Part shown: one piece after another, positions 11,279 to 64,000 of the stretch | How the letters are laid out: the number at the start of each line of letters is the position of its first letter | How positions within the stretch are numbered: position 1 is the first letter of the stretch | NCBI GenBank assembly: GCA_947381965.1 | Contig: CANCXX010000023.1 | Location: 1 to 64,000 of the forward strand | Direction of reading: 5' to 3' | Length of the DNA: 64,000 nt | DNA from: an uncultured bacterium | Lineage (GTDB): Bacteria; Bacillota; Clostridia; Lachnospirales; Lachnospiraceae | The notes under the pieces: generated by a model | Databases searched by the model: none | What the model was told of the DNA's origin: nothing | What the model saw: the letters and a program-made list of their open reading frames with translations, nothing else | Program-made: the position numbers and the translations under genes

Positions 11279-11533
11279 AATAACATAAGAAAAGCGATGA
11301 CGGAAAAAAGTAGTTTAGTTGGAAGCATTCAGAGAGAATAGCGCTTGGTGGAAGCTGTTTATGTGGAAATTAGACGAAAACCATTCCAGAGCTGTAATGC
11401 TGAAATGAGTAAGTGTTACCGTATGCCTGCGTTAAAGGATAGGATTTGATAGAATCTGAAGTGAAAAGTTAAGGTGGAACCGTGCGAAGTGCACCCTTAA
11501 GACTATATGATTATGGTCTTATGGGTGCTTTTC
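11279..11533 (+). promoter_or_regulatory. T-box riboswitch leader of thrS
   Basis: The conserved T-box sequence AAGGTGGAACCGTGCG is at 11471-11486, preceded by stem I features (an AGAGAGAATAGCGC bulge and GGTGGAAGCTG apical segment at about 11332-11356). It is followed by a terminator hairpin whose GCACCC and GGGTGC arms (11491-11528) lead into TTTTC. In this class uncharged tRNA binds the leader and the T-box pairs with the tRNA acceptor end to prevent termination. Several ACC (Thr) triplets are possible specifiers, but I cannot fix the specifier loop by eye. The downstream gene is thrS, so tRNA-Thr is the expected ligand. Confidence 0.9.
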
Positions 11534-14621: not shown

Positions 14622-16994
14622 ATGCTGCTTCATATTATAAAAAGGGATTTAAAAAGAAAGAGGACAATGAATCTGATTTTATTTTTATTTATTGTTCTTG
14701 CAGCCACGTTTCTGGCAGGCAGTGTAAGCAATTTGGTTACAGTTATGGGGGCGGTGGACCATTTTCTGGATACGGCCAACACGCCGGATATCATCATCAT
14801 TGCCCTTGAGGAAAGGCTGGAAAAATTTTTGGACGAAAGCAATTTTGTGTCCGAATATGAAGTTTTGGACATGCGCGCGGTTTCCGGGGATGAGATTGAG
14901 ATTGTGCGCTGCCAAAAGGAGCCTGGAAAAAAGAAATATGAGAAAGGAAATACACTTGCAATTGGAACCGTACCGGAGAACTTTTCAAAGGTCTTCGACG
15001 GGGAAGGAAATACGCTTGATTTAAAAAGAGGGGAGGTGGCGGTTGCCAAGTTACAGGCCCAAAGCAATGACCTGCAGGTAGGGGATGTAATTAAAATCAC
15101 GCTGAGCGGCCGTTCCTTGGAGCTTACGATAAAGTCCATAGCCAAAGATGCAGTGTTTGGTTCCCAGATGATAGGCTTTAAGCGTCTGTTTCTGAATCAG
15201 GAAGATTACGAATACCTTATGGGAGAAGAACCTTATGTTCATATTCTTGTATATAATGTGAACTGCCTAAGGGAAGGGCAGGAAGCTTTTTTAAAGGAGT
15301 ACAGGAGAAGCAACTTTAAAGTGCTTAGTGTGGTAGAAAAGTCAACAATTAAAATGACGTACATTTTTGACATGCTGATAGCGGGAATATTGATAGTGGT
15401 GAGTGTATGTCTGATTTTAATTTCTTTTTTGATTTTACGTTTTACCATTGTCTTTACAATGCAGGAAGACTATAGGGAAATTGGCGTTATGAAAGCAATT
15501 GGCATAAAAGATGTGGGAATCAGGAGTATTTATATGGCAAAGTATCTGCTGATTGCCTTAGCAGGAGTAGCGGTTGGATTAGCGGGCAGCTTTCCCTTTG
15601 GAAAAATACTGCTTTCATACACCATGACTAATTTTGTGTCAGGGGATTTAAGAAATGGGGGAGTCATTCATTTTTTGTGTGCCGGATTGATTGTGGCAGT
15701 TGTTCTGTTGTTTTGCTTTGCAAGCACGGGTATAGTGAAAAAGTTTACCGTTATGGAGGCCATACGCAGCGGTAAAAATGGAGAACGTTACCATGCAAAA
15801 TGTCTGTTCAAACTAAGCAAAAGAAAAAGAATGCCGCCTGCTGTTTATCTTGCATTTAACGATGTACTGGGAAATGTGAAAAGATATCTGGTTCTGGCAT
15901 CAGTTTTTTGTATCGGAACCCTTTTAATCCTTCTTCCGTTAAAGGCTGCCCATACCTTAAAGGACGAAGGTGTGATTAGGACTTTCGGAATGCAGCCTTC
16001 TTCTGTGTTTATTGAAACTGGTGAAGAGGAAAAATATCTGGCGGAAAAAGATAATAAGCTGCTGCTTTCGGAGCTTGACCAGATTAAAAGGGAGCTTGGC
16101 AGACATGGACTGGAGTCGGATGTGTGGATAGAGGTAGATTACATGGTGCCTTGTTATGGAAGCAGCCCGGAAGAGAGTGTTGCTTATTTTACCATGCAGC
16201 AGACAGGGAGAGAAAAAGAGGACTATGATGTTCTATCAGGCAGGGTTCCAGAGCTTCCCAATGAAGTGATGGTAACAGAAAAAACCGCAAGAGAGCTTTC
16301 TGTGGGAATAGGGGATCAGGTGTTTTTTACTTATCCGGAAGGACCGGAAGCATTTATAGTGACGGGTATATTCCAGAGTATGCTGAATATGGGAAATGGG
16401 TTTCGGGTAAGCGCAAAAGCAAAAATACCATGGCAGTATGTAAGCGGCTCTTTTGGTATACAGGCGGAGATTTTTGATGATCTGAATCCGGAGGAAACAA
16501 AGAAAAAAATACAGGACATTTTTCCGGAGGTAAAGGTGATAAGCGGTAGGGAATATACGGACAGAATGATTGGGATGCTGGACCAGCTGGACAGTTTTTC
16601 TCTGCTGGTGGTATGTACAGTTCTGTTTGTAAATATGATGATTACGGTTCTCACAATGAAAACCTTGTTTGCGGGAGAAAGGGGAGAGGCCGCTATGTTA
16701 AAGAGTATTGGTTTTACAGACCGGACGTTAAGAGGGTGGCAGAGCATGAGGATTCTGCTTGTATTGGGGGTGTCAATTGTACTTGGAACGGTACTGTCCC
16801 ATTTTCTTGCGCCTGTTACTTTAGGCCCGATTTTTGCATTAATGGGAGCGGAGCGCCTGCCGCTTATTACGGAACCTTTGGAAACTTATGTGGTTTATCC
16901 GCTGATACTCCTTACAGTAACGGGACTGGCGGCTTATCTGTGTGCGTTTGGAGTAAACAAAGTGGACTTAAGAGAAATCAATACATTAGAATAG
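14622..16994 (+). CDS. ABC transporter permease with two FtsX domains
   Basis: 790 residues. One membrane segment lies near residues 12-35, followed by a ~210-residue extracytoplasmic domain and three membrane segments (FtsX domain 1, about 245-385). The pattern repeats with a segment near 430-450, another ~210-residue external domain and three C-terminal segments (about 665-785). The sequence EDYREIGVMKAIGI is the cytoplasmic coupling region typical of MacB/LolC/FtsX permeases. It pairs with the ATPase gene downstream and an adjacent two-component system, a layout common for export of peptides or antimicrobials. The ATG at 14622 has AAGGAG upstream; a reading from 14580 would enter the repeat. 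Confidence 0.9.
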   Translation: MLLHIIKRDLKRKRTMNLILFLFIVLAATFLAGSVSNLVTVMGAVDHFLDTANTPDIIIIALEERLEKFLDESNFVSEYEVLDMRAVSGDEIEIVRCQKEPGKKKYEKGNTLAIGTVPENFSKVFDGEGNTLDLKRGEVAVAKLQAQSNDLQVGDVIKITLSGRSLELTIKSIAKDAVFGSQMIGFKRLFLNQEDYEYLMGEEPYVHILVYNVNCLREGQEAFLKEYRRSNFKVLSVVEKSTIKMTYIFDMLIAGILIVVSVCLILISFLILRFTIVFTMQEDYREIGVMKAIGIKDVGIRSIYMAKYLLIALAGVAVGLAGSFPFGKILLSYTMTNFVSGDLRNGGVIHFLCAGLIVAVVLLFCFASTGIVKKFTVMEAIRSGKNGERYHAKCLFKLSKRKRMPPAVYLAFNDVLGNVKRYLVLASVFCIGTLLILLPLKAAHTLKDEGVIRTFGMQPSSVFIETGEEEKYLAEKDNKLLLSELDQIKRELGRHGLESDVWIEVDYMVPCYGSSPEESVAYFTMQQTGREKEDYDVLSGRVPELPNEVMVTEKTARELSVGIGDQVFFTYPEGPEAFIVTGIFQSMLNMGNGFRVSAKAKIPWQYVSGSFGIQAEIFDDLNPEETKKKIQDIFPEVKVISGREYTDRMIGMLDQLDSFSLLVVCTVLFVNMMITVLTMKTLFAGERGEAAMLKSIGFTDRTLRGWQSMRILLVLGVSIVLGTVLSHFLAPVTLGPIFALMGAERLPLITEPLETYVVYPLILLTVTGLAAYLCAFGVNKVDLREINTLE

Positions 16995-16996
16995 AA

Positions 16997-17339
16997 ACAG
17001 GGAAGGACTTATGCGGAACTGGAAAACAGCATAAGTCAAGACCAGTGCCCAGAGGAAATCCGGGACGTGAAGCGGAGAGGATTTGCTCTGAAGGAGCAGG
17101 CACAGGGAAGGACTTATGCGGAACTGGAAAACAGCATAAGTCAAGACCAGTGCCCAGAGGAAATCCGGGACGTGAAGCGGAGAGGATTTGCTCTGAAGGA
17201 GCAGGCACAGGGAAGGACTTATGCGGAACTGGAAAACAGCATAAGTCAAGACCAGTGCCCAGAGGAAATCCGGGACGTGAAGCGGAGAGGATTTGCTCTG
17301 AAGGAGCAGGCACAGGGAAGGACTTATGCGGAACTGGAA
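16997..17339 (+). repeat. Family 3 modular repeat, three tandem units plus a partial
   Basis: An exactly 105-bp unit repeated at 16997, 17102 and 17207, with a last partial unit from 17312 that runs into the next gene's ribosome site. Each unit begins with module A (GGACTTATGC then GGAACTGGAA), then GCATAAGTC, which is complementary to the start of A. A second hairpin follows (CAGAGGAAATCC pairing with GGATTTGCTCTG, closed by GTGCC/GGCAC). Because 105 is a multiple of three, the array stays open in several frames and produces false long proteins. Related single-unit elements lie at 34192, 39446 and 62846. Confidence 0.93.
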
Positions 17340-17353
17340 TAAGAGGTGACAAA

Positions 17354-18121
17354 ATGAATCAGTTGGAAGTAAAGGATTTGTGTAAAACATATGTTGTAAA
17401 TAAAAGACCCAACAATGTGCTTCGTAATGTAAATCTGACTGTGGAGGAAGGAGAGATGGTGGCTGTGATGGGGCCTTCCGGTTCAGGAAAATCTACGCTT
17501 CTTTATATGGTCAGCGGTATGGATGGCATAACAGCCGGTAAGGTGGTGTTTTCCGGCCGGGAGATAGGAAGTTTAAGCACAGGGGAAATGAGCGAAATAC
17601 GGCTGAAGGAAATGGGGTTTATTTTCCAGCAGATGTATATGTTAAAAAATCTGACAATTTATGATAATATTATTTTACCGGCATATCAGATAAAGTCAGG
17701 GAGAGGAAAGGAAGGGCGGCGGGAAGTGAACGGGCGTGCCATGGAACTGATGCGCAAGCTGGGAATTGCAGAAATTGGGGAAAATGATATCACAGAGGTT
17801 TCTGGTGGACAGCTGCAGCGTGCCTGTATCTGCCGGAGCCTTATCAACAAGCCCAAAATGATCTTTGCGGATGAACCCACAGGAGCTTTAAACCAGCAGA
17901 GTGCAAAAGAGGTTATGAGGGAGCTTAACAGAGTAAACAGAGAGGGAACAACGATTATGCTGGTTACTCATGACGGAAAGGTAGCGGCAAAATGCGACAG
18001 AGTTCTTTACATTGAGGATGGAAATATCAAAGGGGAGATACGGCTTGGAAAGCTGGAAGGGGAGGAAGTAAAAGAACGGGAGAGAAGGCTGACAGGATGG
18101 CTTTGGGAGATGGGATTTTGA
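17354..18121 (+). CDS. ABC transporter ATP-binding protein (MacB/LolD type)
   Basis: 255 residues with Walker A GPSGSGKST, Q-loop FIFQQMYML, signature VSGGQLQRA, Walker B MIFADEP and H-loop VTHD. The family partners FtsX-type permeases, so it should power the permease encoded just upstream. The start at 17354 follows AAGAGGTG; the family 3 tandem array separates it from the permease stop. The signature reads VSGGQLQRACICRSL, slightly unusual in having Cys where Ala/Val is common. A response regulator and histidine kinase follow. Confidence 0.93.
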   Translation: MNQLEVKDLCKTYVVNKRPNNVLRNVNLTVEEGEMVAVMGPSGSGKSTLLYMVSGMDGITAGKVVFSGREIGSLSTGEMSEIRLKEMGFIFQQMYMLKNLTIYDNIILPAYQIKSGRGKEGRREVNGRAMELMRKLGIAEIGENDITEVSGGQLQRACICRSLINKPKMIFADEPTGALNQQSAKEVMRELNRVNREGTTIMLVTHDGKVAAKCDRVLYIEDGNIKGEIRLGKLEGEEVKERERRLTGWLWEMGF

Positions 18122-33746: not shown

Positions 33747-34203
33747 GTGGAAAGAGAGAATCAAGCGGTACTTAAGTCTGGAAATTGCCATAGAATATAA
33801 ATCATGCCTGTACTTTTCCTGCATTATGTTTTTTTATTTTGTTTACCTGATGGGGCAGAAGATTTTTTACGCCAATGTGGTTAATATGTTTGAAATGATA
33901 CTGACTGCTTATGGGATAGTTTATATACAGGTATATCTGCTGGGGAATTTTGATGAAGGAGAACAGCTTGGAAGAAGGAATGCACTGTACATGATTTCCT
34001 GTACCTTTCTTTATACTGGCGCCTCTTTCCTGCTTAACTGGTTTGAAAGGAAAATTGCTGTAACAGCGTTGTTTTTTGCATATATGTTTTTGGTTTATTT
34101 TTTTGTGTTTTTATGCAATAAAATAAAAAGAATCGTGGATACGGAAAACCTAAATAAAATGTTAAACGAGTACAAAAAAATACAGCCCAAAGAGAGGGCG
34201 TGA
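33736..34203 (+). CDS. DUF3021 membrane protein
   Basis: 155 residues with four membrane segments (about 22-45, 55-75, 88-108 and 115-138) and a basic cytoplasmic C-terminal helix, the DUF3021 pattern. In Firmicutes these proteins are encoded with LytTR regulators and are thought to act as membrane inhibitors or sensors for them. The ATG at 33736 is preferred over an upstream GTG because GGAGGTGG is optimally spaced. Its stop codon lies inside the first module of the family 3 repeat. Confidence 0.88.
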   Translation: MKSKWKERIKRYLSLEIAIEYKSCLYFSCIMFFYFVYLMGQKIFYANVVNMFEMILTAYGIVYIQVYLLGNFDEGEQLGRRNALYMISCTFLYTGASFLLNWFERKIAVTALFFAYMFLVYFFVFLCNKIKRIVDTENLNKMLNEYKKIQPKERA

Positions 34204-34320
34204 GCGGAACTGGAAACAGCGAAAGCCCGAACGGGGCCCAGAGGAAAGACGGGATGGGAGGCAGCCCGGATTTGCTCTGCCGGAGAAGGCGCCGGAGAGG
34301 GCGTGAGCGGAACTGGAATA
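34192..34320 (+). repeat. Family 3 modular repeat, single unit before the ABC ATPase gene
   Basis: Module A (GAGGGCGTGAGC then GGAACTGGAA) occurs at 34194-34215 and again at 34297-34318, 103 bp apart. Between them lie GCGAAAGCCC, partly complementary to A, and a second hairpin with CAGAGGAAAGACGGG and CCCGGATTTGCTCTG arms. The first A overlaps the end of the DUF3021 gene, including its stop codon. The last A runs into TAGAGG, the ribosome site of the next gene. Confidence 0.88.
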
Positions 34321-34331
34321 GAGGTAAAAAT

Positions 34332-35183
34332 ATGGAAAATGCAATTGAAATTAAGGGGCTTACCAAATTTTATGGAAAGCACAGAGGAGTAACAGACATT
34401 AATCTGGAAGTGAAAAAGGGAGATATTTTTGGTTTCCTTGGGCCAAACGGGGCTGGAAAGTCTACTACCATACGAAGTATGCTGGGGCTTCTCCGCTATC
34501 AGAAGGGGGAAGTACGGCTGCTGGGGATGGACGCGGTAAAACAGAGGAAGGAGGTGCTTAGACAGATTGGTTACATGCCTTCGGAAGCCATGTTTTATCC
34601 GGGAATGAAAGTAAAGGATGTGATTGCGTTTGCAGCAAAGGCAAGGGATGTGGACTGCGGTAGGGAGGCAGAGAGAATCAGCAGCCTGCTGGAAGTGGAC
34701 GGCGGAAAAAAGATAGAGGAATTGTCTTTGGGAAACCGCAAAAAGGTAAGTATTGTATGCGCCATGCAGCATAAACCGGGGCTTCTTATACTGGATGAAC
34801 CCACCTCCGGCCTTGACCCGCTGATGCAGGAAGCTTTCTTCAAACTGCTATTGGAGTACAATAGTCAGGGAACCACTTGTTTTTTGTCTTCCCATGTGCT
34901 TTCGGAGGTAAAGAGCTACTGTCGGAATGCGGCAATCATCAAGGAAGGCGCTCTTATCAGGGTGGACACAGTAGAAAATCTGTCAAAGTCCAATGTCCGG
35001 CGAATTAAAATTCGGGAGAGAGGGCAGAGAGAAGAGTTTGTCTATACGGGAAGTATGAAAAAATTAATTGGAAAGCTGGCAGACAGGGATCTGGAGGATG
35101 TGCTGATAGAGGAACCGCCGCTGGAAGAAATGTTTATGCACTATTATGAGCAGCCGGAAGGAACAGACAGGAAAAATCGTTAA
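34332..35183 (+). CDS. ABC transporter ATP-binding protein (CcmA/ABC-2 type)
   Basis: 283 residues with Walker A GPNGAGKST, a Q-loop region RQIGYMPSEA, signature LSLGNRKKV, Walker B LLILDEPTSGLD and H-loop LSSHV. The modified signature and C-terminal extension are typical of ABC-2 export systems. It pairs with the permease gene 20 bp downstream. The start at 34332 follows GAGG in the repeat. It is likely controlled by the LytTR-DUF3021 pair encoded just upstream. Confidence 0.94.
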   Translation: MENAIEIKGLTKFYGKHRGVTDINLEVKKGDIFGFLGPNGAGKSTTIRSMLGLLRYQKGEVRLLGMDAVKQRKEVLRQIGYMPSEAMFYPGMKVKDVIAFAAKARDVDCGREAERISSLLEVDGGKKIEELSLGNRKKVSIVCAMQHKPGLLILDEPTSGLDPLMQEAFFKLLLEYNSQGTTCFLSSHVLSEVKSYCRNAAIIKEGALIRVDTVENLSKSNVRRIKIRERGQREEFVYTGSMKKLIGKLADRDLEDVLIEEPPLEEMFMHYYEQPEGTDRKNR

Positions 35184-39445: not shown

Positions 39446-39572
39446 AAGGGACGGAAGCGGAACTAAAATAGAAACAGCAATGGACCGATCAGTGCCCAGA
39501 GAAAAACTGAAAACGAAAAGGGCAGTTTTTCTCTGAGGAAGCAGGCACGGGGAAGATTGGGGAACTGGAATA
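39446..39572 (+). repeat. Family 3 modular repeat, single unit before desulfoferrodoxin
   Basis: The A-like modules are diverged here (ACGGAAGCGGAACT at the left, GAAGATTGGGGAACTGGAA at the right). The second hairpin is nearly perfect: CAGAGAAAAACTG and CAGTTTTTCTCTG arms inside a GTGCC/GGCAC closing stem. The element ends in TAGGAGG, the ribosome site of the next gene. Confidence 0.85.
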
Positions 39573-39582
39573 GGAGGTAAAA

Positions 39583-39966
39583 ATGGAAACAATTTTTTTG
39601 AAAAACAGTGAACAAATTTTATATTTGGTTTCAGGCAAAAAGGATAACTTAAAAGGGTGCCTGAAGGAAGGTTTTAGTATGATGACCAGTAACACTTCTG
39701 AAGGTGCAGGAGAAAAGCATATTCCTGTGGTGGAAAAAAGTGGAAATAAAGTTACGGTAAAGGTAGGCAGCATTTTTCATCCAATGACACAGGAACACAG
39801 CATTACGTGGATCTTTTTGGAGACGAAAAGGGGCGGGCAGTTTGCAAGACTGGACGCAGACGGACAGCCTGTGGCAGAATTTGTGTTATCAGATGGTGAG
39901 GAAGCTGTGGCCGCTTACGCATATTGTAATCTGCACGGATTCTGGAAAACCAGTATTTCATCTTAA
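39583..39966 (+). CDS. Desulfoferrodoxin / superoxide reductase (SOR domain)
   Basis: 127 residues. The mononuclear iron site is intact: His in EKHIPV, FHPM and QEHSITW, and Cys with His in YCNLHGFW. The small rubredoxin-like N-terminal cluster of classical desulfoferrodoxin is absent (no CxxC near the N-terminus), so it is a one-iron superoxide reductase of the neelaredoxin/class III type. It reduces superoxide to hydrogen peroxide without making oxygen, useful to an anaerobe. A PerR-like repressor gene lies convergent downstream. Confidence 0.88.
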   Translation: METIFLKNSEQILYLVSGKKDNLKGCLKEGFSMMTSNTSEGAGEKHIPVVEKSGNKVTVKVGSIFHPMTQEHSITWIFLETKRGGQFARLDADGQPVAEFVLSDGEEAVAAYAYCNLHGFWKTSISS

Positions 39967-62587: not shown

Positions 62588-62819
62588 AAAGCGGTGGAGA
62601 TGATACCGCAGGCGGGGACGAAGAGAAGTAGCGTGGATTATCGCTTCCAGAGAGCCGGGATGGTGGAAAGCCGGCAGAATGAATTCATGTGAAAAACAGC
62701 TTTATCAGCCAAAATGAAAATACATTGAGTGACTGTACAGACAGTAAATCAGGTGGCACCGCGGATTGGTTAAATTCGTCCTGAATTGATTAAAAGAAAA
62801 TCAGTTCAGGACTTTTTTG
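62588..62819 (+). promoter_or_regulatory. T-box riboswitch leader of aspS
   Basis: Stem I features are GAAGAGAAGTAGCG (about 62621-62634) and AGAGAGCCGGGATGGTGGAA (about 62650-62669). The T-box core AGGTGGCACCGCGG lies at 62751-62764. The terminator is GTCCTGAATTGATT with AATCAGTTCAGGAC arms (62778-62813), followed by TTTTTT. Uncharged tRNA would favour read-through. A GAC (Asp) triplet occurs at about 62731 in a plausible region, but I cannot confirm the specifier by eye; tRNA-Asp is expected from the downstream gene. Confidence 0.92.
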
Positions 62820-62845: not shown

Positions 62846-62980
62846 GTGCAGGAAGGGCGGTTACGGAACTTTAAACAGTAAACGCCCGGACTGTGCCCAG
62901 AAAAAAACTGGATGAGAAGCAGACAGGATTTTTTCTGCTGTGAACAGGTGCAGGAAGGGCGGTTACGGAACTTTAAATAG
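62846..62980 (+). repeat. Family 3 modular repeat, single unit between T-box and aspS
   Basis: Module A (GGAAGGGCGGTTACGGAACT) occurs at 62851 and again at 62953, 102 bp apart. Between them lie GTAAACGCCC, complementary to A with one mismatch, and a second hairpin with CAGAAAAAAACTG and CAGGATTTTTTCTG arms. The second A runs into TAGGAGG, the aspS ribosome site. It starts ~27 nt after the T-box terminator. Confidence 0.9.
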
Positions 62981-62989
62981 GAGGAAAAA

Positions 62990-64000
62990 ATGGAATTATC
63001 AACGTTATACCGTGAATGTACTTTAAACCAGATTTCCGAAAGTGATATTGGAAAGGAAATGAAGGTGGCAGGATGGATTGAAAATATCCGTGACCACGGC
63101 GGCGTATCTTTTATTGATTTGAGGGATATGTATGGCGTCCTGCAGATTGTTATGAGGGATACCTCTTTGCTAAAAGGCCTGAATAAGGAAGATTGCGTCA
63201 GCATCAAAGGGGAGATTGAGAAGAGGGATGAGGAAACTTATAATCCCAAAATTCCCACAGGAACCATTGAACTGGAAGCCCACAGTGTTGAAGTCCTGGG
63301 AAAAGTATACAGGCAGCTTCCCTTTGAGGTGGCAACTTCAAGGGAAATCCGGGAAGACTTGCGTTTAAAGTACCGTTTTCTTGACCTTAGAAACCGCAAG
63401 GTGATGGAAAATATGATTTTTCGTTCAAATGTAATCAGCTTTCTGCGGGAAAAAATGACACAGATGGGATTTATGGAGATACAGACGCCTATTTTATGCG
63501 CCTCTTCTCCGGAAGGGGCAAGGGATTATATTGTGCCTTCCAGACATTATAAAGGGAAGTTTTATGCGCTGCCCCAGGCGCCTCAACAATATAAGCAGCT
63601 TTTGATGGTGTCCGGTGTGGATAAATATTTTCAGATTGCGCCCTGTTTCAGGGATGAGGACGCAAGGGCGGACCGTTCTCCCGGTGAATTTTACCAGCTG
63701 GATTTTGAAATGAGCTTTGCCACGCAGGAGGATGTTTTCCGGGCAGGAGAGGAAGTTCTTACAGGGACTTTTGAAAAGTTTGCGCCGGAAGGATATGAGG
63801 TGACAAATGCGCCTTATCCGGTAATCAGCTATAAGCAGGCCATGTTGGAATTTGGAACAGATAAGCCGGATTTGCGTAACCCCTTACGGATCATTGATTT
63901 GTCTGAATTTTTCAACCGCTGTACTTTTAAGCCTTTCCAGAATAAGACAGTCAGGGCAATTAAAATAGAAGGGCACCAGTCCAAGGGCTTTCATGAAAAG
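62990..64000 (+). CDS. aspS: Aspartyl-tRNA synthetase (5' part, cut by window edge)
   Basis: The frame is open from the ATG at 62990 to the end of the window, 337 codons of a protein normally near 590 residues. The N-terminal anticodon-binding OB-fold (KVAGWIENIRDHGGVSFIDL) is followed by the class II core: LRLKYRFLDLRN, motif 2 FRDEDARADRSPGEFYQLDF, and the flipping-loop region. It charges tRNA-Asp. TAGGAGG lies 7 nt before the start, supplied by the repeat. Expression should respond to aspartyl-tRNA supply through the T-box leader. Confidence 0.95.
   Translation, partial: MELSTLYRECTLNQISESDIGKEMKVAGWIENIRDHGGVSFIDLRDMYGVLQIVMRDTSLLKGLNKEDCVSIKGEIEKRDEETYNPKIPTGTIELEAHSVEVLGKVYRQLPFEVATSREIREDLRLKYRFLDLRNRKVMENMIFRSNVISFLREKMTQMGFMEIQTPILCASSPEGARDYIVPSRHYKGKFYALPQAPQQYKQLLMVSGVDKYFQIAPCFRDEDARADRSPGEFYQLDFEMSFATQEDVFRAGEEVLTGTFEKFAPEGYEVTNAPYPVISYKQAMLEFGTDKPDLRNPLRIIDLSEFFNRCTFKPFQNKTVRAIKIEGHQSKGFHEK

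Follow-up and report, generated by a model that had tools for sequence, protein, structure and literature searches.

At four places in the window, by which we mean the whole stretch of 64,000 nucleotides under analysis, a short repeat runs into the Shine-Dalgarno (SD) sequence of a gene on the same strand (Table 1). Two of these genes encode ABC transporter ATP-binding proteins, one a desulfoferrodoxin-like protein and one, aspS, an aspartate--tRNA ligase; their start codons, at 17354, 34332, 39583 and 62990, each follow a last A box and an SD. The aspS copy lies downstream of a T-box leader which was missed by a default Rfam scan, as its score is under the gathering score. A second T-box leader in the window, at 11288-11501, scores 112.2 bits and is above the gathering score.

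Table 1. Repeat units, neighbouring genes and leader at the four window loci.
Feature	Position	Strand	Remarks
Locus 1, what appears to be left of a preceding unit, namely its 3' stem strand GGACTTATGC and its A box (17015-17024)	16997..17025	+	
Locus 1, unit 1: ACAG, hairpin and A box (17120-17129)	17026..17129	+	99.5 bits with model R2; folding energy -42.5 kcal/mol for unit 3, of the same sequence
Locus 1, unit 2, same sequence as unit 1	17131..17234	+	Exact repeat; model R2 match
Locus 1, unit 3, identical; A box 17330-17339 adjoins the SD region TAAGAGGTG	17236..17339	+	Folds at -42.5 kcal/mol
Locus 1, downstream gene, 255 aa, ABC transporter ATP-binding protein	17354..18121	+	Best NCBIfam match LolD-type, below cut-off
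Locus 2, apparent upstream A remnant	34192..34215	+	
Locus 2, single full unit	34216..34318	+	85.9 bits; z -2.94
Locus 2, downstream gene, 283 aa, ABC transporter ATP-binding protein	34332..35183	+	
Locus 3, apparent upstream A-like remnant; variable part unlike the downstream one	39446..39473	+	
Locus 3, single full unit	39474..39570	+	50.2 bits; z -3.31
Locus 3, downstream gene, 127 aa, desulfoferrodoxin-like	39583..39966	+	NCBIfam matches below cut-off
T-box leader of aspS, 5' of the element	62606..62786	+	69.1 bits, below the Rfam gathering score of 93
Locus 4, apparent upstream A remnant	62846..62874	+	
Locus 4, single full unit, flanked by the T-box terminator and the aspS SD	62875..62976	+	74.6 bits; z -4.69
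aspS (aspartate--tRNA ligase), extends past the window end	62990..64000	+	Element absent before aspS in 29 relatives

Read from 5' to 3', a unit consists of (A)ACAG, a long interrupted hairpin and the A box GGAACTGGAA, which leads into the SD, for a total of about 104 nt. The A box is single-stranded and purine-rich; a bulge of about 9 nt lies on the 3' side of the hairpin. The hairpin itself is composed of a long stem (P1 and P2, 20 modelled pairs with internal mismatches), an upper stem which reads CAGAG...CTCTG in most of this genome's copies, a small terminal hairpin and the 3' strands. Unpaired positions conserved at 85% or more comprise the 5' CA, four single loop or bulge positions and seven of the ten positions of the A box. 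When 36 units were folded singly, this common architecture was recognized by eye in nearly all of them; in the window unit at 39474 the upper stem is present and the long stem only partly formed. Folds of the four window units are better than those of shuffled sequences by 2.9 to 6.3 standard deviations (z from -2.9 to -6.3).

At the first locus, 133-nt copies beginning at 16997, 17102 and 17207 are 100% identical at a spacing of 105, and the array from 16997 to 17339 amounts to three exact 105-bp repeats and a partial copy. An earlier, sequence-only reading of the window had reported this threefold 105-bp unit, an A-B-A layout shared with the loci at 34192, 39446 and 62846, a last A leading directly into the ribosome site at all four, and a variable part of A which agrees within the locus at three of them. 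Each of these observations was reproduced, with the variable part identical at 17026, 34216 and 62875, and not at 39474. The A-B-A layout thus stands, but the unit boundary does not: it is better drawn as ACAG-hairpin-GGAACTGGAA, as 21 of 62 first units have no upstream box.

Copies across the genome

The genome searched comprises 4.3 Mb in 92 contigs. BLAST with one 105-bp repeat returned 49 matches and the covariance model R2 returned 115 at E≤0.1, while the end motif GGAACTGGAATAGGAG, with up to two mismatches, occurs 63 times against nine for its reversed control. Taken with the better-than-shuffled folds, these figures place the repeats first noted in the window beyond chance. On the fetched loci, R2 at E≤0.001 delineates 116 units (108 distinct) merging into 76 loci, a tally in which some loci are doubly counted (the contigs of L009 and L010 are near-duplicates, and an array split at contig ends may also enter twice) and from which weak whole-genome matches above the loci cut-off, such as C51:12849 and C90:3957, are left out. 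One unit is present at 42 loci, two at 28 and three at six, partial copies at contig ends included; the tandem multiplication described for the first locus therefore recurs, with more than one unit at 34 of the 76.

Twenty-two contig ends of this genome lie in, or about 65 bp or less from, a copy of the element, which has a bearing on genome assembly; as contig ends fall at copies, the true number of units in arrays is probably underestimated. Contigs C14 and C44 contain the same matches offset by 67 bases, and the assembly, for which the contamination estimate is 7.31%, seems partly duplicated.

Identity averages 94% among tandem units of one array (34 pairs), compared with 58% among units of different loci, which indicates that an array expands through duplication on the spot and that separate loci diverge from each other within the limits set by pairing. 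Unit lengths vary by single bases, and on this basis we judge a coding role unlikely. Rfam provided no match at gathering score to the window elements, none to the element at E≤1 in L001, L009, L015, L022 and L030, and, for 16990-17360 at E≤5, just eukaryotic families far under gathering. A ZMP/ZTP riboswitch (53.2 bits) occupies L022:2112-2209, with two units of the element farther downstream in the same locus.

Pairing of the hairpin on the sense strand

RNAalifold returned no base pair for 40 units aligned plainly by MAFFT (A2), because stem lengths differ, and the first model (R1) was hence based on sequence only. R1 was replaced by way of a 13-seed alignment of units of similar length, to which a structure written by hand from single-sequence folds was added. 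In these 13 units, aligned by MAFFT with no model, 82.7% of cells are paired and 17 of 34 pairs are changed on both sides; double changes occupy 38 cells, a count which falls to 12.4 in shuffles and does not exceed 10 once the pairing partners are slid. The larger alignments were fitted to the model and are thus biased in its favour, but gave 437 double-change cells against 134 shuffled for 116 units of this genome, and 1230 against 384 for 136 units mostly from other genomes, the latter set having a covariation score of 0.664, where shuffling gives 0.171 and sliding the partners at most 0.123. Two further measures are weak ones: the number of further pair types in the 13-seed set was reached by 49 of 500 shuffles, and the number of pairs with any double change in the 136-unit set (33 of 34) compares with a shuffled mean of 30.5 (24 of 500 shuffles).

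G-U cells number 98 and A-C cells 24, where shuffles give 289 and 208, respectively. Both kinds would be equally depleted if the strand were unselected, so the excess of G-U identifies the sense strand as the selected one. This excess fits an mRNA, and a strand-specific hairpin in single-stranded DNA is also compatible with it. Two pairs of orthologous filled loci were compared. In one such pair (L099 and L094), 33 shared in-unit pairs have undergone two double compensatory changes and one change from G-U to A-U, with none lost; in another (L239 and L240), there is one change from G-U to A-U, and zero pairs have been lost. The sense-strand hairpin is under selection. The sequence-only reading had held that the second hairpin keeps its pairing as its sequence varies, and covariation in all three alignments bears this out.

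Placement before ribosome sites and distribution among relatives

Of the 76 loci, 66 are uncut by a contig end downstream. An ORF starts no more than 70 nt from the last unit at all 66 and no more than 25 nt from it at 60. A stricter rule, which accepts SD-preceded ORFs of at least 100 codons on the same strand with a start 11-22 nt past the last A box, holds for 62 of the 66, compared with 396 of 9120 positions drawn at random from these loci, coding sequence included (4.3%). The last A thus passes into a ribosome site at nearly every checkable locus. On the other side, a co-directional ORF of at least 100 codons stops within 60 nt (11-51 nt) of the first unit at 49 of 66 loci with upstream DNA, compared with 593 of 9120 random positions, which again include coding sequence (6.5%). 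Sites of the element are intergenic or lie behind leader terminators, as at aspS with its upstream T-box. An absence of covariation and the presence of copies inside genes or far from starts, the outcomes which the sequence-only reading had named as telling against it, were both sought, and neither was found.

Loci from other genomes are similarly placed. In a first set, an ORF starts within 70 nt at 36 of 41 loci with downstream DNA; the five exceptions consist of three palindromic matches on the wrong strand and two which precede the SD and ATG of an ORF of fewer than 60 codons, and one of the 36 is also a palindromic wrong-strand match. In a second set the count is 61 of 62, biased by the SD-containing pattern with which that set was drawn. 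The genes downstream are diverse, with 163 proteins from this and other genomes falling into 143 clusters.

The element is patchily distributed. Nine of 37 genomes in the genus, this one included, are carriers, with 1 to 99 matches each. At the level of the family, carriers make up 2 of 120 and 8 of 397 sampled genomes (this genome counted), and a broader model, R3, built lest R2 be too narrow, recovered the same 8 of 397; in a sample of the phylum, this genome alone was found (1 of 398). An exact scan of named genomes for the 18-base end motif located at least 114 stretches. Among the 80 matches listed, the hosts are mostly Lachnospiraceae, uncultured or Clostridia bacteria, including Acetatifactor muris DSM 23669, and two, a Flavobacterium and a proteobacterium, look like chance. 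The window array had no match in plasmid and phage collections. One exact match to the end motif in IMG/VR (L361), which scores 15.5 bits with the model and falls within a long ORF on a viral contig, was read as chance.

For each of aspS, gltD and hom, the upstream region was inspected in 29 relatives. None of the 29 has an A box close to the aspS start (L166 has little upstream sequence). The element likewise precedes gltD in none of 29, and G149, a genome outside that set, has a copy with a different stem sequence; at hom, three of 29 relatives have the element, one intact (G152) and two as remnants (G125 and G147). Across these 87 loci of relatives, model R3 recovered a single intact unit, in L315, along with a weak stub there and another in L317. 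At empty hom sites the native stop is followed by the native SD (e.g., TAAGGAGGAAACAAAATG), and in this genome the element is situated between the two. We saw by eye no target-site duplication at aspS, hom or gltD relative to genomes 77-86% identical, the boundaries being uncertain by a few bases. G151 is 86% identical to this genome at aspS. A downstream gene was called at 13 of its loci, and one of these genes, dapB, is orthologous to one of the 66 of this genome, in a comparison which leaves out this genome's 10 loci cut by contig ends. On such sequence grounds, namely many short copies at sites which are empty in relatives, the element may be classed as a small interspersed repeat, or MITE in the general sense.

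Origin, function and nearest known repeats

The account we consider probable, if far from assured, is that of short, non-coding mobile repeats, restricted to a lineage, which enter the gap before the SD, are transcribed, are held to a hairpin and most likely act as structure in intercistronic mRNA. Copies would insert themselves in the sense direction, by a transposition route which presumably chooses AGGAGG-like targets, with a stop codon or leader terminator on one side and the following gene's SD on the other, and insertion would leave the native SD and its spacing intact. The inserted unit would be transcribed within the operon mRNA, with its hairpin kept by selection on the sense strand. 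There the hairpin would most likely shield the downstream ribosome site from ribosomes finishing the upstream gene, and might offer an RNase-resistant or RNase III-type processing point; the unstructured, purine-rich A box may keep the SD open, and expression would be affected. The number of units would change through tandem duplication and slippage at hairpins.

Purely selfish DNA of the REPIN or IS200-IS605 type might leave much the same traces: the hairpin would then be a single-stranded DNA substrate of a transposase and AGGAGG its target motif, with no role in mRNA. Conserved ends with variable stems, patchy spread and insertion by SD motifs at genes of any kind all agree with such an origin, and a strand-specific DNA hairpin could also yield the G-U bias. 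However, the Y1 transposase (Pfam PF01797) is not associated with carriage. It was detected in 10 of 16 carriers, leaving six carrier assemblies without a match, and in 14 of 24 hand-picked non-carriers (19 of the genus's 28 and five others), all figures from draft assemblies in which a gene may be missed. Moreover, a resident copy shared by two genomes has kept its pairing through double changes, in the one pair studied, and nearly all checkable copies are in sense orientation before a gene. We regard a wholly selfish nature as a possibility of some substance, though an unlikely one. Strong covariation, a fixed place before starts and about 100 copies in one genome could instead point to a vertically inherited class of cis-regulatory RNA, such as a riboswitch or protein-binding leader, which defines a regulon. 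This is scarcely credible given the diversity of downstream genes and their turnover between close relatives, as seen in the comparison with G151, together with the 28 of 37 genus genomes with no match and the lack of any Rfam match. Intrinsic terminators or attenuators are likewise stable intergenic hairpins, yet no T-run lies 3' of the hairpin, a terminator scan returned zero sites in 16900-17500, the one stretch scanned, and in the listed loci the hairpin runs into the A box and SD; to this interpretation we attach next to no weight.

The sequence-only reading had further proposed a two-state RNA switch, in which the start site is controlled by whether the 5' strand of the stem pairs with the upstream A or with the downstream one. 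In accordance with this, the upstream A is repeated perfectly at 17026, 34216 and 62875, and partition-function folds predict a preference for the upstream partner in 14 of 41 boxed first units. As a general rule, the pair of mutually exclusive structures did not survive scrutiny. The upstream GGWAC box is present at 41 of 62 first units and missing at 21. For the 39 scorable units, the mean number of upstream pairs is 6.46 of 10, little above the 5.61 obtained with the boxes of other loci, and 12 of them have eight or more of ten pairs; the downstream mean is 7.38, against 6.30 with other loci's partners. Partition-function folds of 66 first units favour the downstream partner, with which the 5' strand of the stem pairs at 0.56, compared with 0.16 upstream. 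Nor do the models suggest that the element sequesters the SD: across 52 loci its mean unpaired probability is predicted to be similar with the element (0.64) and with the element removed in silico (0.60), and almost nothing in the 116 units complements the SD core (CCTCC occurs in one and CTCCT in none). The upstream A looks like the remnant of a preceding unit, and several of these remnants resemble, by eye, stubs from which the hairpin has been deleted. Switching may be possible at some loci, where the best explanation is that it arises incidentally from tandem copies; that it controls the start site we deem very unlikely.

Should the favoured account of mobile repeats acting in intercistronic mRNA be correct, they would represent a class of mobile repeats specialised for the few bases between a stop codon and a ribosome site, in contrast to the preference of pneumococcal repeats for convergent-gene gaps, as presented in part of PMC3049150. 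The structure of intercistronic mRNA would then have been changed at about 70 loci of one bacterium. This would constitute a natural replicated experiment, in which a hairpin of known shape and number before the SD can be set against operon expression, and prompts one to ask what enzyme is able to select SDs. A bolder conjecture, which we think doubtful, is a new SD-aimed mobility mechanism, perhaps RNA-templated, which would recognise SD-like AGGAGG, insert a hairpin directly 5' of it, make hairpin-SD modules of native genes by the dozens with starts unbroken and maybe be common to at least two unrelated repeat families within this lineage, a second SD-adjacent family being known from it (see below).

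We found no description of the element in the open PMC literature, the library to which our search was confined; the comparisons made here draw on parts of the papers cited. BOX elements of Streptococcus pneumoniae occupy 125 loci, are modular, vary in tandem number and have predicted RNA stem-loops. They are thought to be mobile and parasitic, belong largely to one lineage, show little functional bias in their neighbours and, with RUP and SPRITE, are over-represented between convergent genes (PMC3049150). The element resembles BOX in its roughly 100 interspersed loci per genome, tandem variation, stem-loops, confinement to a lineage and unbiased neighbours. It is set apart by the description of BOX in those parts of PMC3049150, where terminal inverted repeats, target duplications and three distinct modules are given and no tie to the SD, whereas the element has one unit type, in sense and adjacent to the SD, with widely changed stems. 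REPINs are inverted doublets of REP sequences, randomly spread over extragenic space with a RAYT nearby; like the element, REPIN and REP sequences are short, non-autonomous extragenic hairpin repeats, the hairpin being predicted in single-stranded DNA or mRNA (PMC3116915). In contrast to REPINs, the element is found before SDs and has no associated Y1 transposase.

Correia elements of Neisseria are small and mobile, occur in transcripts, where they can be bound by RNase III and either cleaved or protected, and affect their neighbours (PMC2649163). They are inverted-repeat elements which can carry promoters at their ends, and neither SD adjacency nor tandem units form part of their description in the sections of PMC2649163 drawn upon. 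The TAACTGA repeats of the Beggiatoaceae are present at many loci, mostly forward and just 5' of starts, in tandem and with no pattern among the genes; they are patchy, possibly spread horizontally and have been proposed to play a translational role (PMC4679880). The element is similarly close to start codons, forward, tandem, patchy and independent of gene function. However, TAACTGA units are seven bases long, and 132 of 147 start-ward sets lack an RBS (Table 1 of PMC4679880), whereas the native SD is kept here, and the parts of PMC4679880 used describe no hairpin unit of the element's size. BOX, REPIN, Correia and TAACTGA repeats are thus nearest in behaviour, and none is described, in these partial sources, as combining a sense-oriented position next to the SD, a native SD left in place, units in tandem and a stem of widely varying sequence.

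A second and unrelated family of SD-adjacent repeats was observed in L068 (minus strand, at about 7348), L075, L081, L169, L244 and L312. Most copies contain a palindrome like GATTGAAAATT..AATTTTCAATC, then TTTGTGTCTGCGC..., and end near GCGCAGAAATGGAGTAAAATATG; by eye, six of 12 regular-expression matches are directly at an SD and start codon. In L068, the copy is immediately 3' of the first family's A box. At two contig-end loci the A box is followed by AGTCCAGCTAA(T/G)AAATGTCAATAG, which may be the end of an insertion sequence and which also occurs, with no box, in another species (L019:5483, the end of L035 and L083:5465).
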